From NCBI GenBank assembly GCA_012719355.1, contig JAAYAM010000081.1, positions 1 to 38,157 on the forward strand: a DNA stretch of 38,157 nt, written 5' to 3'. Shown here piece by piece: positions 5,308 through 28,257 of the stretch (its first letter is position 1; each line of letters opens with the position of its first letter). Both the position numbers and the translations under genes were made by a program. Below the pieces are notes generated by a model, which did not search any database, had not been told where the DNA came from, and saw nothing but the letters and a program-made list of their open reading frames with translations. The stretch comes from Acidobacteriota bacterium. Lineage in GTDB: Bacteria > Acidobacteriota > UBA6911.

Positions 5308-6855
5308 ATGAGAGACAAAGAAAGACAGTTCTGGCATTCATTAAAGAACGGCCCTCTGCCAAGCGCCCTCTGGCATGCAGACGGGCACCTTGCGGACGCA
5401 AACCAGCCGTTTTGCGACATGATCAGCTACACTCCCGAAGAAATCCACAGCGGCACAGTCAACTGGAGGCTCATCACCGTCCCTGAACTCATGGAGCAGG
5501 ACAGCCGGCTGGTGGAAGAAGTGAGCACGTCAGGCATCTGCAGGCCTTACGAGAAGATCTTCCTGCGCCGCGACGGCAACCTGGCTCCGGCCATTGTCGC
5601 AGGTGGGCGGCTCAACAAGTTCCGCAACCACACGGTAGTGTTCGCTATCGACATCTCGTCAATCGAGCCCGAAAGCGACCTGCTCAACAGCCTTCGCGAG
5701 CGGATGCTCAAGCTTTCCAGCGTCGTCTCGGACATGCAGGACGAACTGCTGCTGCACGCCAGGGCGGAAAACGCGCTGCAAATCCGCAGAGGAGAGTTTC
5801 AGTCACTTTCCGAAAAGATGGCTCAGGCAAGGCAGCACGAATGCCACACGGCGATCCAGCTGCTCAACGAAGCACTGCAGCAGCTCTTTGCTTCGAGCTT
5901 CGACAAAACGGTGGCGGCATCTCGCAGAGAAATGCGCCGTGCTGCCGCAGCCACGACTTCAATCACAAGACAGTGCCTCGAGACATCGCGTCATCTGGCG
6001 GGCGATCTTGCCCTTTCGATCCTGCCTGAAGCGGAGCTGATCCCGACACTGAAGCTGCTGGCGCAGTCCTTCCGGGATCGCCATGGGATTCAGATAGAGC
6101 TGGCAGTCTCTGACGCGGTCGAATCCACCTCCGACGAGATCAAGCTCGCGATCGTGCAGGCGGTCCGCGAGCTGCTGACCAATGTCGTCGAACACTCCCA
6201 CGCAAAGCTGGCCCGCGTCAGCGCCGGCCGAACCGGGGAATTGCTCCAGATTGAAGTGGAAGACAGCGGCGACGGCTTTGATCCTGATCGAGTGTCGCTT
6301 CAGACCGGCAGCGCGGGCGGCCTGGCGGCGATCAGCGAGCGCGTTCGCGAACTCGACGGTGAACTGCAGATCTTCAGCACTCCGGGACTGGGTACCAGGT
6401 GCAGGATCGGCTTGCCGCCCACGACCAGGGCCGAACGAGCCCGAATGATTCAGCAGCAGGGTGTCCAGACATACGCAGGCCACGATGACCGGAAGAAGAT
6501 CCAGGTCATCCTCGTCGATGATCACACGGTAATTCGACAGGGAATAGTCAGCCTTCTCAAGGTCGCACCCGATGTAGAGATCGTGGGAGAAGCAGCCAAT
6601 GGCGAGGCGGCAGTTGAGCTGGCACGAACCGTTCGGCCGGACGTCATCCTGATGGATGTATGCATGCCCGGGATGGACGGGGTGCAGGCCACCCGGCTGA
6701 TTCACGACGAAATGCCGCAGGTACGGGTGATTGGATTGTCGATGTTCGAGGAAGCAGAGATGGCTTTCCTGATGCGGGAAGCCGGTGCCGTCGGTTACCT
6801 CTCGAAAAACGGCCCGTCGGATGCGATGATTTCCGCCATCCGGGCGTCGGTGTGA
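5308..6855 (+). CDS. PAS/HATPase_c/receiver hybrid protein with degenerate H-box (possible pseudokinase)
   Basis: The 515-residue cytoplasmic protein has a PAS domain (about 12-120), a coiled linker (about 120-170), a DHp-like helix, an HATPase_c domain (about 275-370) with N-box ELLTNVVEHSHA and G1 box DSGDGFD, and a receiver domain (about 397-515) with DD404-405, phospho-acceptor Asp450 and Lys500. Against the kinases at 11191 and 15244, the H-box aligns without gaps: their ILHDGLQQIL and KLHDGLQQIL are LLNEALQQLF here. The phospho-acceptor His is therefore Asn187 (codon AAC, 5866-5868) and the next Asp is Glu. The SPPILHQ motif downstream has also decayed. The receiver lacks a DNA-binding output domain. 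AGGA at 5298-5301 supports the ATG. It probably cannot autophosphorylate normally; a decoy, phosphatase or phosphate-sink role is possible. Confidence 0.88.
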   Translation: MRDKERQFWHSLKNGPLPSALWHADGHLADANQPFCDMISYTPEEIHSGTVNWRLITVPELMEQDSRLVEEVSTSGICRPYEKIFLRRDGNLAPAIVAGGRLNKFRNHTVVFAIDISSIEPESDLLNSLRERMLKLSSVVSDMQDELLLHARAENALQIRRGEFQSLSEKMAQARQHECHTAIQLLNEALQQLFASSFDKTVAASRREMRRAAAATTSITRQCLETSRHLAGDLALSILPEAELIPTLKLLAQSFRDRHGIQIELAVSDAVESTSDEIKLAIVQAVRELLTNVVEHSHAKLARVSAGRTGELLQIEVEDSGDGFDPDRVSLQTGSAGGLAAISERVRELDGELQIFSTPGLGTRCRIGLPPTTRAERARMIQQQGVQTYAGHDDRKKIQVILVDDHTVIRQGIVSLLKVAPDVEIVGEAANGEAAVELARTVRPDVILMDVCMPGMDGVQATRLIHDEMPQVRVIGLSMFEEAEMAFLMREAGAVGYLSKNGPSDAMISAIRASV

Positions 6856-11190: not shown

Positions 11191-13170
11191 TCACGTTCCC
11201 TGTAACAGCGGTGCGGTAAGCCGGATCCGGGTTCCCCGCCCGGGTGCGCTGTCGATGTGAATGTCTCCGCTCAGGTAGGAGAATCTTTCCGCTATGCCGA
11301 AGAGCCCGATTCCGCTTTGATCACCTTCGCCGCGGTTGGAGCTGGCAGGAGCAAAGCCGGATCCGGTATCGGCAACAGTCATTGAAAGGCTGCCATTGAG
11401 ACGTTCCAGGGAGAGGTGAGCAGACCTGACGCCGGCGTGCTTCACCACGTTGAAGAGCAATTCCCTCGCCGCACTGAAAAACAGCAGCAGTTCGGTCTCC
11501 TGTACGGGCGGTATCTCACCGCTTACACTTATCTCGACATCGAGTCCATGCTTGTCATGCATCCAGCCCGCCAGCCACTTGATCGAGGTCACGAGATCAC
11601 CCCGCGCCTGGTGAAGAATCGGCGGGCTGATTTCATAGGTAAGCGAGCGCGAAATCGCTATAGCCTCGTCGATCAGTTTGTCGACCTCTGACAGTCCTTC
11701 GTGCGCCGGATTTCTTGCCGTGAGTGATACCCTGAATTTTGCCGCCACGAGGATCTGTTGCAGGCCGTCGTGCAGGATGCGCGCCAGATTCTGCCGTTCG
11801 TGATGCTCGGCCAGCATCAGATTCCTGCGGGATCGGATCAACTCGGACTCCATCCTCTGGCGTTCCTTCTCGGTTTCCATCAGCTGCGTGATATCGACGA
11901 AGGCCGAAACGGCGCCGCGCACGCTTCCATGGTCGTCGATGAGCGGTGCGGCGCCGCCTATGACATAAACGTGTCGTCCGTCCGGGAAGCGCAGTTCGAT
12001 CTCAACGTCCCTGACCGGTTCTGCCGTCAGCATTGCCTTCAGCATCGGGAGTTCATGCGACGCGTATTCGCTGCCGTCAGGCTTGAACCGCTGCACGGGA
12101 GGTTCAACCCCCGGCTCCGGGTTAACCAGGTAAGAGACGTTGGTTCCGTTGGCGACACCCAGCAGCTCGTTGGCGGCCCTGTTACCGGTTATGATCCGGC
12201 GAGCAGGATCGGCGCTTATCCATACATATACGGGAAGGGTCTCGAGCAGCTGCTCGAGCTCCTCTGTCCGTTTGCGCAGGTCTTGGGAATAGCCGCGCAG
12301 CCTGTGAAGCATCGCCGCCAGCGCAAACCCGAGTTCGTCGCGATCCGAAACCGGCGCGATGGTCGCGGTGTAGTCGCCCGCCGCCAGCTGGCGGGCTTTT
12401 TCGGAGATATTCCTCAGCCACGAAGTCATCCGCCGGAAGCTCTGCTGCAGTTCTCCAAGTTCATCCCGCCGGTTTGCGGAAACCGGAGACTCTGCGAGTT
12501 CGCCTCTGGAGATGCGGTCGGCTGTGCGAGCCAGTGCGTCGAGCGTCCTGGACATGTTCCTCGCAAAGAGCACCCCAAGAACCACAAGGCTCACGATGAG
12601 CAGCGGCAGGCCGATCATCAGCACCCGGTTCACGATCAGGGCGTTGTTCAACGCATTCTGGCGGCGCGCTTCCAGCCTTTTCAACTCGTCCGATTCGATC
12701 TCATCCAGGGCCGCCCGGATGTCATCCATGATCTGTTTCCCATGCCCGCTCTGGATCAGCGGCAATACCGCGGAGAGTCCCTCCCGCTGCCGAACCTCTA
12801 TTGCGTTTTCGAGTTGCCTGATGCGCCTCTGTGCAAGCGCCTTTATCCGCTCGAACCTGACTGTGGCCGCCGGATCTCCCTTAACGCTGGCGGAAGCCAG
12901 ATCCAGGTAATGAGGATATGCGCGAAGACCGGTTTCGTAGATGTCGAGATATTCCATCCTACCTGTCAGCAGAAACCCGCGCTGGCCTACCTCAACATCT
13001 TTCAGCGACGAGCCGACTTTCTCGAGGTTCCTAAGCAGGCTGATCGTATCGTTGACCTCTGCATTCGCCCGAACCATCCTTTGACTCGAAATGGCTATCG
13101 CCGCGATGCCCACAATGCCCAGCATCAAAACCAAAAGGAATGCTCCACCGATCTTCACGCCGATCCGCAT
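11191..13170 (-). CDS. Membrane histidine kinase: CHASE3-HAMP-PAS-HisKA_3-HATPase
   Basis: The 659-residue sensor kinase has TM1 (about 8-28), a periplasmic CHASE3 domain containing VEVGQRGFLLTGRMEYLD, TM2 (about 183-207), a HAMP region that seems doubled (two DELG segments), and a PAS domain. A NarX/HisKA_3-type dimerisation helix with intact phospho-acceptor in ARILHDGLQQIL follows, then HATPase_c (N-box ELLFNVVKHAGV, G1 DTGSGFA). It has no receiver, so the partner regulator is elsewhere, possibly a receiver domain of the hybrid kinases at 5308 or 15244. I chose the ATG at 13170 (GAGG six bases upstream, TM1 directly after); a 74-residue extension to 13392 is Ser/Gly/Pro-rich and unlikely. 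It converges with the radical SAM gene. Confidence 0.9.
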   Translation of the reverse strand: MRIGVKIGGAFLLVLMLGIVGIAAIAISSQRMVRANAEVNDTISLLRNLEKVGSSLKDVEVGQRGFLLTGRMEYLDIYETGLRAYPHYLDLASASVKGDPAATVRFERIKALAQRRIRQLENAIEVRQREGLSAVLPLIQSGHGKQIMDDIRAALDEIESDELKRLEARRQNALNNALIVNRVLMIGLPLLIVSLVVLGVLFARNMSRTLDALARTADRISRGELAESPVSANRRDELGELQQSFRRMTSWLRNISEKARQLAAGDYTATIAPVSDRDELGFALAAMLHRLRGYSQDLRKRTEELEQLLETLPVYVWISADPARRIITGNRAANELLGVANGTNVSYLVNPEPGVEPPVQRFKPDGSEYASHELPMLKAMLTAEPVRDVEIELRFPDGRHVYVIGGAAPLIDDHGSVRGAVSAFVDITQLMETEKERQRMESELIRSRRNLMLAEHHERQNLARILHDGLQQILVAAKFRVSLTARNPAHEGLSEVDKLIDEAIAISRSLTYEISPPILHQARGDLVTSIKWLAGWMHDKHGLDVEISVSGEIPPVQETELLLFFSAARELLFNVVKHAGVRSAHLSLERLNGSLSMTVADTGSGFAPASSNRGEGDQSGIGLFGIAERFSYLSGDIHIDSAPGRGTRIRLTAPLLQGT

Positions 13171-13497
13171 TGCCCGCCTCGATCCGGAAACCAATACCCC
13201 CGCACCAGCCGATTGTGCTCCAAAACAGGGTCCAGATCCGGAGTCCTGTGCTTTCCTGGAAGGAGAACAACTTGGAGAGCTGATCGGGAATCCAGATCCA
13301 TTCATGCAGGATAAACTCTCGGCCCGCGCAGGAACAGGAGTAAATTCCTGCAATATCCATTCCAGCTTCCTCGCCCGCGCACAACGGGTCACCTTCTCCT
13401 TTTCTCCCGCTCTGCAAAGGACTATAGTTTTCTGAGTATCTCCCCCCCTGACACAATCCTGAATCCTGAATCGAAACTGAATCCGAGGAGGTGCCGT

Positions 13498-15243: not shown

Positions 15244-17394
15244 TCAGTGCCTCTTTCCTGCGCACGCATTGATTGCGGTGATTACGTCATCGGGAGGGCC
15301 GCTCTTGGAGAGATAGTTCACGGCGCCCGCCTCCATCATTGCTGTCGCCTGTTCCTTTTCCTGGAACATGGACAATCCAATGACACTGATCTCGGGAAAT
15401 TCCGAATGGATGATACGGGTCGCCTGAATCCCGTTCATTCCCGGCATGCTGATGTCCATGAGAACGACATCGGGGTGAAGTCGTCGGACCATCTCGATGG
15501 CGGACTCGCCGTCCGAAGCTTCTCCTGCAACCTCCAGTTGCTCATGTTCCTGCAGCATGACAGCAAGCCCGTGCCTGACCACTGCATGATCGTCGACCAG
15601 CAGTATCCGGATCTTCTTTTTCGCCTTTCTTATCGAACCGGCTTGTCTCGATCTGAACCGTGGAGCCCGGCTTGCGCGACTCGAGGCAAGATCTCTCCCT
15701 GGTTCCACGGCCAGCGCCTGAGGAAGGACAAGGGTTATCTTCGATCCTGCTCTCGGAGCGCTTTCGACTTTCATCCGGCCGCCGAGCATCGAAAGACGTT
15801 CGCTGAGCATGAAGAGGCCGAAGCCTCCGGCCGTCCCCCCTCCAGACCTGATCTGGTTCGTGTCGAAGCCGCATCCTTCGTCCGCCACCGTGATCCAGAC
15901 CGACTCATCGTGACTTGATATGGTGATTCCAGCCGCTTTCACGCCGGCGTGTTTCCTTACATTCGACAACAGTTCCCGTATTGCATGAAACAGGAATGTT
16001 GATACCTTATCGGAGAGCCCGCTGTTCACGTCATGAATCTCCAGGCGCACGTCAAAGCCGTACTTGTCGTGCATCCACTGCGCCAGCCATTTTAGTCCTG
16101 CAATCAAGCCACTCTGGTGCAGAATCGGAGGGCTGAGCTCGGCAGTCAGCGAGCGGGAGGTCTTGATCGCCTCGTCGATCATGGCAGCCACTTCAACCAC
16201 TGCGTCTTTCCTGTCGGCACTTCTTTCAATTGTGGCAAGCTGGTATCTCGCACCGGCCAGGATCTGCTGAAGTCCGTCGTGCAGTTTCTGGGCAAGCCTC
16301 TTCCTTTCCCGGTCTTCAGCCACAATCAGTTCAAGTGCCAGAAGGCGAAGCTGCTCCGAGCGCTGTTCCACTTCGGCAGTCCTGGCCGCAACCTTGTGTT
16401 CAAGGAGTTCGTTCAGGGATCTCAGTTCCTCCTGAACCTGCATGCGCCTCAGGGCAAGTCCGAGCTGATCGCCCAACCCCTCGAGATAATGGACCAGATC
16501 AAGGGTCAGTCTGCCTTCTTCCCTTCCGTTGAGTTGGAGCAACCCGATGATCTCCCGACCGGAACGGACCGGAACGAGAGCCACCGATTGGTACCCCTGG
16601 CTTATGCAATTGTTGCGCGGCGATTTCCGCAATTCAGCTTCCGCCGGTATTGCAAGAAGGTCCGACGCCTTGTTGGTCCAAAAGCTCCCGTTGGAAGTGA
16701 AAAACGGCAGGTCTGGATCGGTACGGCCGGTGAGTATCAACCCGCAGGTGCATTCAAGAACGGGCTTTCCATCCTTGCCCAGTACCGGCTGTCCGTCTTC
16801 AGACCTGCTACAGAGCTGATTTTCCAGTAGAATGAATTCCTTCGAGAATCCTTTCTGCTCAAAATACGGATAGTCGTCCCCCTGTCGCAGCCGCAATCCT
16901 ACGGCATCGAGCCCGGTCGACTCCTGTATGAGGGCGAGAACTTCGCGTATCGATTCCGAGATGTCGCGGGTATCGCGGTTCAGGATCCGCAGGACCCCGG
17001 CCGTAAGAGTCTGCTGGGTCTTCTGATGGGAAGCTTCGCGGACGATCACCTGTATCGAGGGCTTGCCCTTCCATAGTATTGAGGCCGCGGTCATCTCGAC
17101 AAGAAACTGGATTCCGTCCAATCGTTTATGGCGGCACCCCATGCAGGACATGGTCTCCCCGGAATGAACTTTCCGGGCTTTCGCCTTCGCTTTCCTCCTC
17201 TCCCTGGGATGCAGCAATTCCAGCGGCGCCTTGGATTGAAGGTGTTCGATACAGGCCGCCTTGTACAGTCTCAGCGCTGCAGAATTGCAGTAGACGATTT
17301 TCTCATCCTGGCAGACGATGACCGCATCCGGCATACGCTCCAGCAACTCACGATAATGCCCTGTGGCGTCCTGAGGCATCATGTCAAATCCCAT
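15244..17394 (-). CDS. PAS-GAF-HisKA_3-HATPase-receiver hybrid histidine kinase
   Basis: The 716-residue soluble hybrid kinase has PAS (about 10-120), a GAF domain (about 135-320) with cysteines at LCSRSED and ECTCGL, a coiled coil, a HisKA_3 helix with phospho-acceptor His372 in KLHDGLQQIL, and HATPase_c (N-box ELLSNVRKHAGV, G1 DEGCGFD). A receiver follows (about 594-716) with DD601-602, Asp647 and Lys697. The receiver is NarL-like but stops without a LuxR helix-turn-helix, so phosphate must move on to another protein. It shares its layout with the degenerate protein at 5308, but here all catalytic residues are present. The ATG at 17394 is taken; the ATG at 17382 is an equally plausible start. 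Confidence 0.9.
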   Translation of the reverse strand: MGFDMMPQDATGHYRELLERMPDAVIVCQDEKIVYCNSAALRLYKAACIEHLQSKAPLELLHPRERRKAKAKARKVHSGETMSCMGCRHKRLDGIQFLVEMTAASILWKGKPSIQVIVREASHQKTQQTLTAGVLRILNRDTRDISESIREVLALIQESTGLDAVGLRLRQGDDYPYFEQKGFSKEFILLENQLCSRSEDGQPVLGKDGKPVLECTCGLILTGRTDPDLPFFTSNGSFWTNKASDLLAIPAEAELRKSPRNNCISQGYQSVALVPVRSGREIIGLLQLNGREEGRLTLDLVHYLEGLGDQLGLALRRMQVQEELRSLNELLEHKVAARTAEVEQRSEQLRLLALELIVAEDRERKRLAQKLHDGLQQILAGARYQLATIERSADRKDAVVEVAAMIDEAIKTSRSLTAELSPPILHQSGLIAGLKWLAQWMHDKYGFDVRLEIHDVNSGLSDKVSTFLFHAIRELLSNVRKHAGVKAAGITISSHDESVWITVADEGCGFDTNQIRSGGGTAGGFGLFMLSERLSMLGGRMKVESAPRAGSKITLVLPQALAVEPGRDLASSRASRAPRFRSRQAGSIRKAKKKIRILLVDDHAVVRHGLAVMLQEHEQLEVAGEASDGESAIEMVRRLHPDVVLMDISMPGMNGIQATRIIHSEFPEISVIGLSMFQEKEQATAMMEAGAVNYLSKSGPPDDVITAINACAGKRH

Positions 17395-27384: not shown

Positions 27385-28257
27385 ATGATTTCTTGCGACC
27401 CGGAAAAAATCTTCACCCTGATCCCGGAATTCGAGAGCACTTCGGCGCGCGTCGCCCGTTCCATTCACAACACGGTGATGAAGCATGAAGATGCGCGTGA
27501 GGTTGCGGATGCCTTCCACGGCACATGGCTCAAGCATCCGCTTCATCCCGCACTCACCGACCTGGTTGTCGGAGCATGGACGCTTGGCACCGTGCTGGAC
27601 GGCATTTCGTGCATCAGCCCATCTCGGAGCACGAACAAGGCAGCCGATCTCCTGATTTCAATCGGCAACATAGCAGCGATCCCGACCGCCTTATCCGGCA
27701 TTGCCGATGCTTCCGCGGCTCCGAAAGGCTCGATCACGACGGCGTCTAGCCACGCGCTGATGAACGTCGGAGGTCTCGCGCTCAATCTCATGTCGGCCTC
27801 GCAACGCCGCATCGGGAAGCGCCGCACCGCACGGTGCCTTTCGGCTGCAGCCTCGGGAATGCTGCTGATTTCGGCATGGCTTGGCGGGAAACTTGTCTTC
27901 AATCAACGAGTAGGGGTAAGCAAGATCAGCGGGCCGCCGGCTTCGGCTGACTGGAAATTCGCCCTGCGCGAGAACGAACTCCAGGAAAGCACGCCGCGGC
28001 GCATCGAGGTAGACGGGGCGCAGGTAATGCTCTGCCGCTGCGGCGGGACCATCAATGCAATCGGGGCCGTCTGCGGACACGAAGGAGGGCCGCTGGAAAA
28101 AGGCAAGGTCGAGGGGACGCACGTCACCTGCCCATGGCACCAGTCGGTGTACGACGTACAGAACGGGTGCGTCGTGCATGGGCCGAGCACATACGACGAG
28201 CCGGTCTACGAAACGAGAGTCGTCGACGGCAATATTGAAGTCCGTCCGGCCGGATAG
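27385..28257 (+). CDS. DUF2231-type membrane domain fused to a Rieske [2Fe-2S] domain
   Basis: The 290-residue protein has an N-terminal DUF2231-like membrane part (about 45-180; HPLHPALTDLVVGAWTLGTVLDG and further hydrophobic helices) and a C-terminal Rieske ferredoxin domain (about 190-290). Cluster ligands are visible in CGHEGGPL (C-x-H) and CPWHQSVYD (C-x2-H). It should be a membrane-anchored electron carrier; the redox partner is unknown. The ligand spacing is that of bacterial Rieske ferredoxins, not of cytochrome bc1 subunits, and no cytochrome b gene is adjacent. GGGAGGG seven bases upstream fixes the ATG. The gap after hemH is 88 nt. Confidence 0.9.
   Translation: MISCDPEKIFTLIPEFESTSARVARSIHNTVMKHEDAREVADAFHGTWLKHPLHPALTDLVVGAWTLGTVLDGISCISPSRSTNKAADLLISIGNIAAIPTALSGIADASAAPKGSITTASSHALMNVGGLALNLMSASQRRIGKRRTARCLSAAASGMLLISAWLGGKLVFNQRVGVSKISGPPASADWKFALRENELQESTPRRIEVDGAQVMLCRCGGTINAIGAVCGHEGGPLEKGKVEGTHVTCPWHQSVYDVQNGCVVHGPSTYDEPVYETRVVDGNIEVRPAG

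Follow-up and report, generated by a model that had tools for sequence, protein, structure and literature searches.

What does a histidine kinase do when it has no histidine to phosphorylate? The question is raised by a hybrid kinase gene in a 38,157-nucleotide stretch of DNA from an Acidobacteriota bacterium (assembly GCA_012719355.1, contig JAAYAM010000081.1), the whole of which is termed the window. A first-pass annotation of the window had proposed that the phospho-acceptor residue is replaced by asparagine, that the protein may bind ATP and accept phosphate on its receiver but not make phospho-His, and that it may be a pseudokinase that tunes intact paralogues. A His-to-Asn exchange is familiar from an engineered mutant of NtrB (H139N, NRII), a kinase-dead phosphatase, although this mutant is not used as evidence here. 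The features on which the argument turns are collected in the table.

Features of the 5308-6855 gene and of two kinase paralogues (positions are those of the window; residues are those of the 5308-6855 protein)
Feature	Position	Strand	Remarks
Putative pseudo-histidine kinase gene	5308..6855	+	515 aa: PAS, helical linker, DHp, HATPase_c, receiver
PAS domain, residues 25-117	5380..5658	+	Weak PAS_9 match, slightly below curated cut-off
Degenerate DHp, residues 160-240	5785..6027	+	10/21 conserved columns broken; helical hairpin still predicted
Asn187 (AAC) at phospho-acceptor His position	5866..5868	+	His in 33/33 relatives
Glu188 at conserved Asp of HisKA_3 DxxxQ phosphatase motif	5869..5871	+	Alignment
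Gln192, phosphatase glutamine (DesK Gln193 equivalent), kept	5881..5883	+	Alignment; PMC5231405
Asp199 at His+12 (DesK Leu200 receiver-docking equivalent)	5902..5904	+	Hydrophobic in 26/26 hybrid relatives; PMC5231405
Leu-Ser 236-237 replacing Pro-Pro of SPPILH after DHp helix 2	6013..6018	+	Alignment
HATPase_c, residues 241-371	6028..6420	+	Fold nearest VraS and DesK ATP-binding domains
Glu295 at N-box Lys	6190..6192	+	Lys in 32/33 relatives; Asn292 and His296 kept
Shortened G2 box (SAGGLAAISER; GGFGLFSIRER-type in relatives)	6310..6342	+	Alignment
NarL-type receiver, residues 396-513	6493..6846	+	Every active-site residue present; no DNA-binding domain behind
Asp450, receiver phospho-acceptor	6655..6657	+	Sequence and alignment
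Intact HisKA_3 kinase without receiver	11191..13392	-	CHASE3, HAMP, PAS, HisKA_3 (His), HATPase_c; candidate phosphate donor
Intact paralogue of similar layout	15244..17394	-	PAS, GAF, HisKA_3 (His), HATPase_c, receiver; candidate phosphate donor

The substitution itself is seen directly in the sequence. As annotated, the H-box aligns without gaps (LLNEALQQLF here, ILHDGLQQIL in the 11191 kinase and KLHDGLQQIL in the 15244 kinase), with Asn187 in place of His and Glu188 in place of the next Asp. For comparison, 33 related kinases whose sequences cover this helix were used, of which 14 are encoded in this genome and the other 19 in seven related ones (eight genomes in all). All of them carry His, as do three more HisKA_3-type kinases of this genome that lie outside the set; the 33 were collected by similarity to the protein under study, such that a highly divergent His-less kinase could be missed. 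The residue that follows is Asp in 31 relatives and Glu in the other two. The phosphatase glutamine, Gln192, is retained here as in every relative, and the HisKA_3 phosphatase motif DxxxQ accordingly reads ExxxQ.

Asparagine at this position is only one of many changes in the dimerization and phosphotransfer (DHp) domain. The SPPILHQ segment, which had been described as degraded, reads LSILPEA, and both of its prolines, found in 33/33 and 32/33 relatives, are gone. The position twelve residues after the His, whose DesK equivalent, Leu200, docks into the regulator (PMC5231405), is assigned to Asp199, an assignment in which an alignment shift by one residue could place Phe198 there instead. When conserved columns are defined as those at least 85% conserved among relatives, ten of 21 are broken in this DHp, compared with six of 22 in the second-worst, that of L017. 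The protein gives no match to Pfam HisKA_3 (PF07730) at E 0.001, and both paralogues in the window do. Asn187 therefore belongs to a domain-wide loss of the DHp, and the observation is stronger than the annotation had stated.

The ATPase and receiver domains are better preserved. Pfam matches to HATPase_c (PF02518) and to the receiver (PF00072, 8e-26) exceed their cut-offs, and an AlphaFold2 model, built on a shallow alignment of six sequences (mean pLDDT 61) and used for fold only, keeps at moderate confidence the long helical hairpin, the ATPase fold and the receiver. The best structural alignments are to VraS and DesK for the ATPase part and to CheY- and NarL-type domains for the receiver part. 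Conservation of the ATP site is mixed. The N and G1 boxes had been called intact, which holds for Asn292, His296 and the G1 motif D319-x-G-x-G, but Glu295 stands in for the N-box lysine, and compared with its nearest relatives the protein lacks two residues of the G2 box. Since both of these elements are altered, ATP binding is uncertain on the sequence, and the earlier suggestion that the protein may bind ATP is weaker than it had appeared. The receiver active site, on the other hand, is complete, with the acidic pair Asp404 and Asp405, the phospho-acceptor Asp450, Ser478 and Lys500 all in place. The domain-by-domain pattern of conservation thus lends good support to the proposal that the protein makes no phospho-His at the usual site while its receiver could still accept phosphate.

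This uneven erosion can be expressed in several ways. Broken conserved columns number 4/27 in the ATPase domain and 3/38 in the receiver, and the difference between DHp and receiver is significant by Fisher's test (p = 0.0008), a rough value as the columns are non-independent. Mean identity to 26 hybrid relatives is 0.56 for the receiver, similar to that of the relatives among themselves (0.57), but is 0.24 for DHp helix 1 (0.65 among the relatives) and 0.35 for the ATPase domain (0.46). When branch lengths were refitted for each domain on a fixed tree of all three domains from 27 hybrid kinases (the 5308-6855 protein and the 26 relatives), its terminal branch was the longest of the 27 for the DHp (3.9, saturated, versus a median of 0.32, or ∼12-fold) and for the ATPase domain (1.23 versus 0.40, ∼3-fold), while that of the receiver was ordinary (0.42 versus 0.31, rank 10). 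From these comparisons the kinase core appears to be largely freed of constraint and the receiver to be still constrained; because no orthologue was found, purifying selection on the receiver is judged from the relatives rather than from dN/dS. There is also no sign that the receiver was swapped in from elsewhere. In the receiver tree it clusters with those of the hybrid kinases L034 and L022 and not with receiver-only genes, and L022 is the nearest by identity, at 68% for the receiver and 54% for HATPase plus receiver; the tree of HATPase plus receiver does not settle the position of the gene (no starred set).

The gene appears to be species-specific as far as sampled. An orthologue was not found in 38 genomes of the class or 396 of the phylum, where the best match had 44% identity, none of the nine other genus genomes searched carries the gene, and no closer copy emerged when GTDB contigs and IMG/VR were scanned with patterns. 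Neighboring genes have orthologues at 68-80% identity within the genus, which counters an origin in foreign DNA or contamination. The gene on the 3′ side lies on the opposite strand, and scans for promoters and terminators found nothing.

Pseudo-histidine kinases of the DivL and RetS kind keep the kinase fold but have lost a catalytic residue, and in this respect the 5308-6855 protein resembles them. By analogy with RetS of Pseudomonas aeruginosa, tuning of the intact paralogues is its most likely function. The receiver of RetS accepts phosphate from GacS, and RetS also dephosphorylates GacS and inhibits GacS autophosphorylation (PMC5992135). The reading that we favor, to which we would give an even chance, is that of a pseudo-histidine kinase that makes no phospho-His and whose working receiver is phosphorylated by paralogues, draining or redirecting their phosphate. 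In such a scheme the protein would be unable to phosphorylate itself, its kinase core would survive as a dimeric, PAS-controlled scaffold that governs access, Asp450 would receive phosphate from at least one intact HisKA_3 paralogue in the same cell, and that phosphate would be drained or redirected, the protein being a sink or branch point, much as RetS acts on GacS. Transmitter phosphatase activity via Gln192 or inhibitory heterodimers are possible but less certain additions; paralogous sensor kinases can heterodimerize, as with ChrS and HrrS (PMC9491836). A fuller version, held more tentatively, is that of a naturally evolved HisKA_3 pseudo-kinase in which the phosphotransfer helix was released and the receiver selected, yielding a sink or branch point, controlled by PAS, for the phosphate of an enlarged set of hybrids that lack DNA-binding outputs. 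Some points count against the favored reading. The receiver has no output domain; in every hybrid relative, too, the receiver is followed by a tail of no more than 28 residues and by no DNA-binding domain. A recently dead gene could also show such a receiver if the DHp was the first part to lose constraint.

The latter point leads to the main rival, early gene decay, in which the kinase function was lost, selection ceased and the gene is a future pseudogene. This is improbable but must be taken seriously, as the gene is missing from the other genus genomes searched, has no close relative that could be found elsewhere and has the longest branch in two of three domains. However, the frame is uninterrupted over 515 codons, and third-position G+C equals or exceeds that of the neighbors in the PAS, ATPase and receiver parts and is similar to it in the DHp part. 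Moreover, the receiver is not accelerated despite the saturated DHp branch, which neutral decay of the whole gene would not give.

Slightly less probable is that the protein tunes its paralogues mainly through the kinase core, by dimerizing with them or by dephosphorylating their receivers via Gln192, with its own receiver being secondary. The glutamine of the HisKA_3 phosphatase motif positions the hydrolytic water in DesK (PMC5231405) and NarX (PMC3510030), the helical hairpin is still predicted by the model, and RetS, with its degenerate kinase core, does act as a transmitter phosphatase (PMC5992135). Yet the DHp is the most eroded part of the protein, NarX depends upon both residues of DxxxQ (PMC3510030), and the well-studied pseudo-kinase DivL, whose His is replaced, is inactive both as a kinase and as a phosphatase (PMC4211667). 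A transmitter phosphatase role is therefore possible from the sequence but is weakened by loss of the conserved Asp (although two relatives share the Glu) and by Asp199 at the hydrophobic docking position, so that the docking surface looks damaged.

Autophosphorylation on another histidine of the helix is very unlikely. His177 and His180, ten and seven residues before Asn187, both lie within the predicted DHp helix, but His180 has no counterpart in aligned relatives, His177 is matched only in the 11191 kinase, which has the normal His, and the G2 box and the N-box lysine are changed too. A sequencing or assembly error hardly merits consideration: a single base separates AAC from CAC, and the draft assembly is split into 377 contigs, but nine further conserved DHp columns are changed in an intact frame with no frameshift. 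A hidden frameshift within the DHp was likewise rejected, as neither of the other two frames matches a DHp any better.

A phosphate-accepting pseudo-histidine kinase would have partial counterparts among known systems. RetS, a hybrid sensor that likewise joins a degenerate kinase core to an intact receiver in a cell with working sister kinases, is the closest in design, but it keeps the H-box, lacks the ATPase G-boxes, is of the HisKA type and is membrane-bound (PMC5992135), whereas the 5308-6855 protein combines a PAS domain with a HisKA_3-type core that has lost its H-box, and its partners are candidates only. DivL of Caulobacter shares the replaced phospho-acceptor (Tyr, or Ala in one species), PAS input and a retained kinase fold; it differs in that its other kinase motifs are kept, in its conservation across the alphaproteobacteria, in sensing phosphorylated DivK and in a described layout of PAS, DHp and CA domains with no receiver (PMC4211667). 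DesK, NarX and VraS have the same DHp and ATP-binding fold and the glutamine of the phosphatase motif, but possess the His and following Asp and act on separate NarL-type regulators (PMC5231405; PMC3510030). The ChrS pseudokinase of Corynebacterium glutamicum is a catalytically dead sensor kinase whose partner is a paralogue, but it arose by a laboratory frameshift in the ATP domain, has its His and works with a separate response regulator (PMC9491836). In RcsD an inactive HATPase, less conserved than its active counterpart, is joined to a PAS-like domain and a working phosphotransfer part, although the latter is an Hpt domain rather than a receiver (PMC7418988). RdmS and other Methanosarcina kinases also lack a phospho-acceptor H-box, and RdmS has no autokinase activity under reducing conditions, but these proteins are archaeal, lack the entire H-box, and bind and hydrolyze ATP (PMC11784639). 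Studies of pseudo-histidine kinases are few, and most of the described examples that were found belong to the HisKA type. The 5308-6855 protein is a plausible new example of a kind of protein that is already known. Within its one chain the phosphotransfer helix is saturated, the ATP domain is worn in part and the receiver is ordinary. This clear split predicts that the protein works through its receiver, and by duplication of hybrid kinases one copy may have become a regulator of the others.

Possible phosphate donors in this genome are seven intact hybrids that share this layout, along with additional HisKA_3 kinases. Other kinase types were surveyed by motif, with incomplete coverage of the HisKA type. 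HisKA_3 kinases that end in a NarL-type receiver and lack a DNA-binding domain (L002-L008 and L021-L040) number eight in this genome, the 5308-6855 gene included; at E 1e-60 they are also numerous in genomes G001 and G031 but few or absent in most others searched. Three receiver-only genes of the same genome (L010, L011, and L012) are ∼50% identical to the receivers of the hybrids and may be shared partners. No response-regulator gene was seen adjoining the 11191-13392 (-) kinase within the window. Elsewhere in the window, a gene at 27385-28257 (+) appears by eye to join a membrane-like part to a Rieske-type iron-sulfur motif (CRCGG...CPWHQS).
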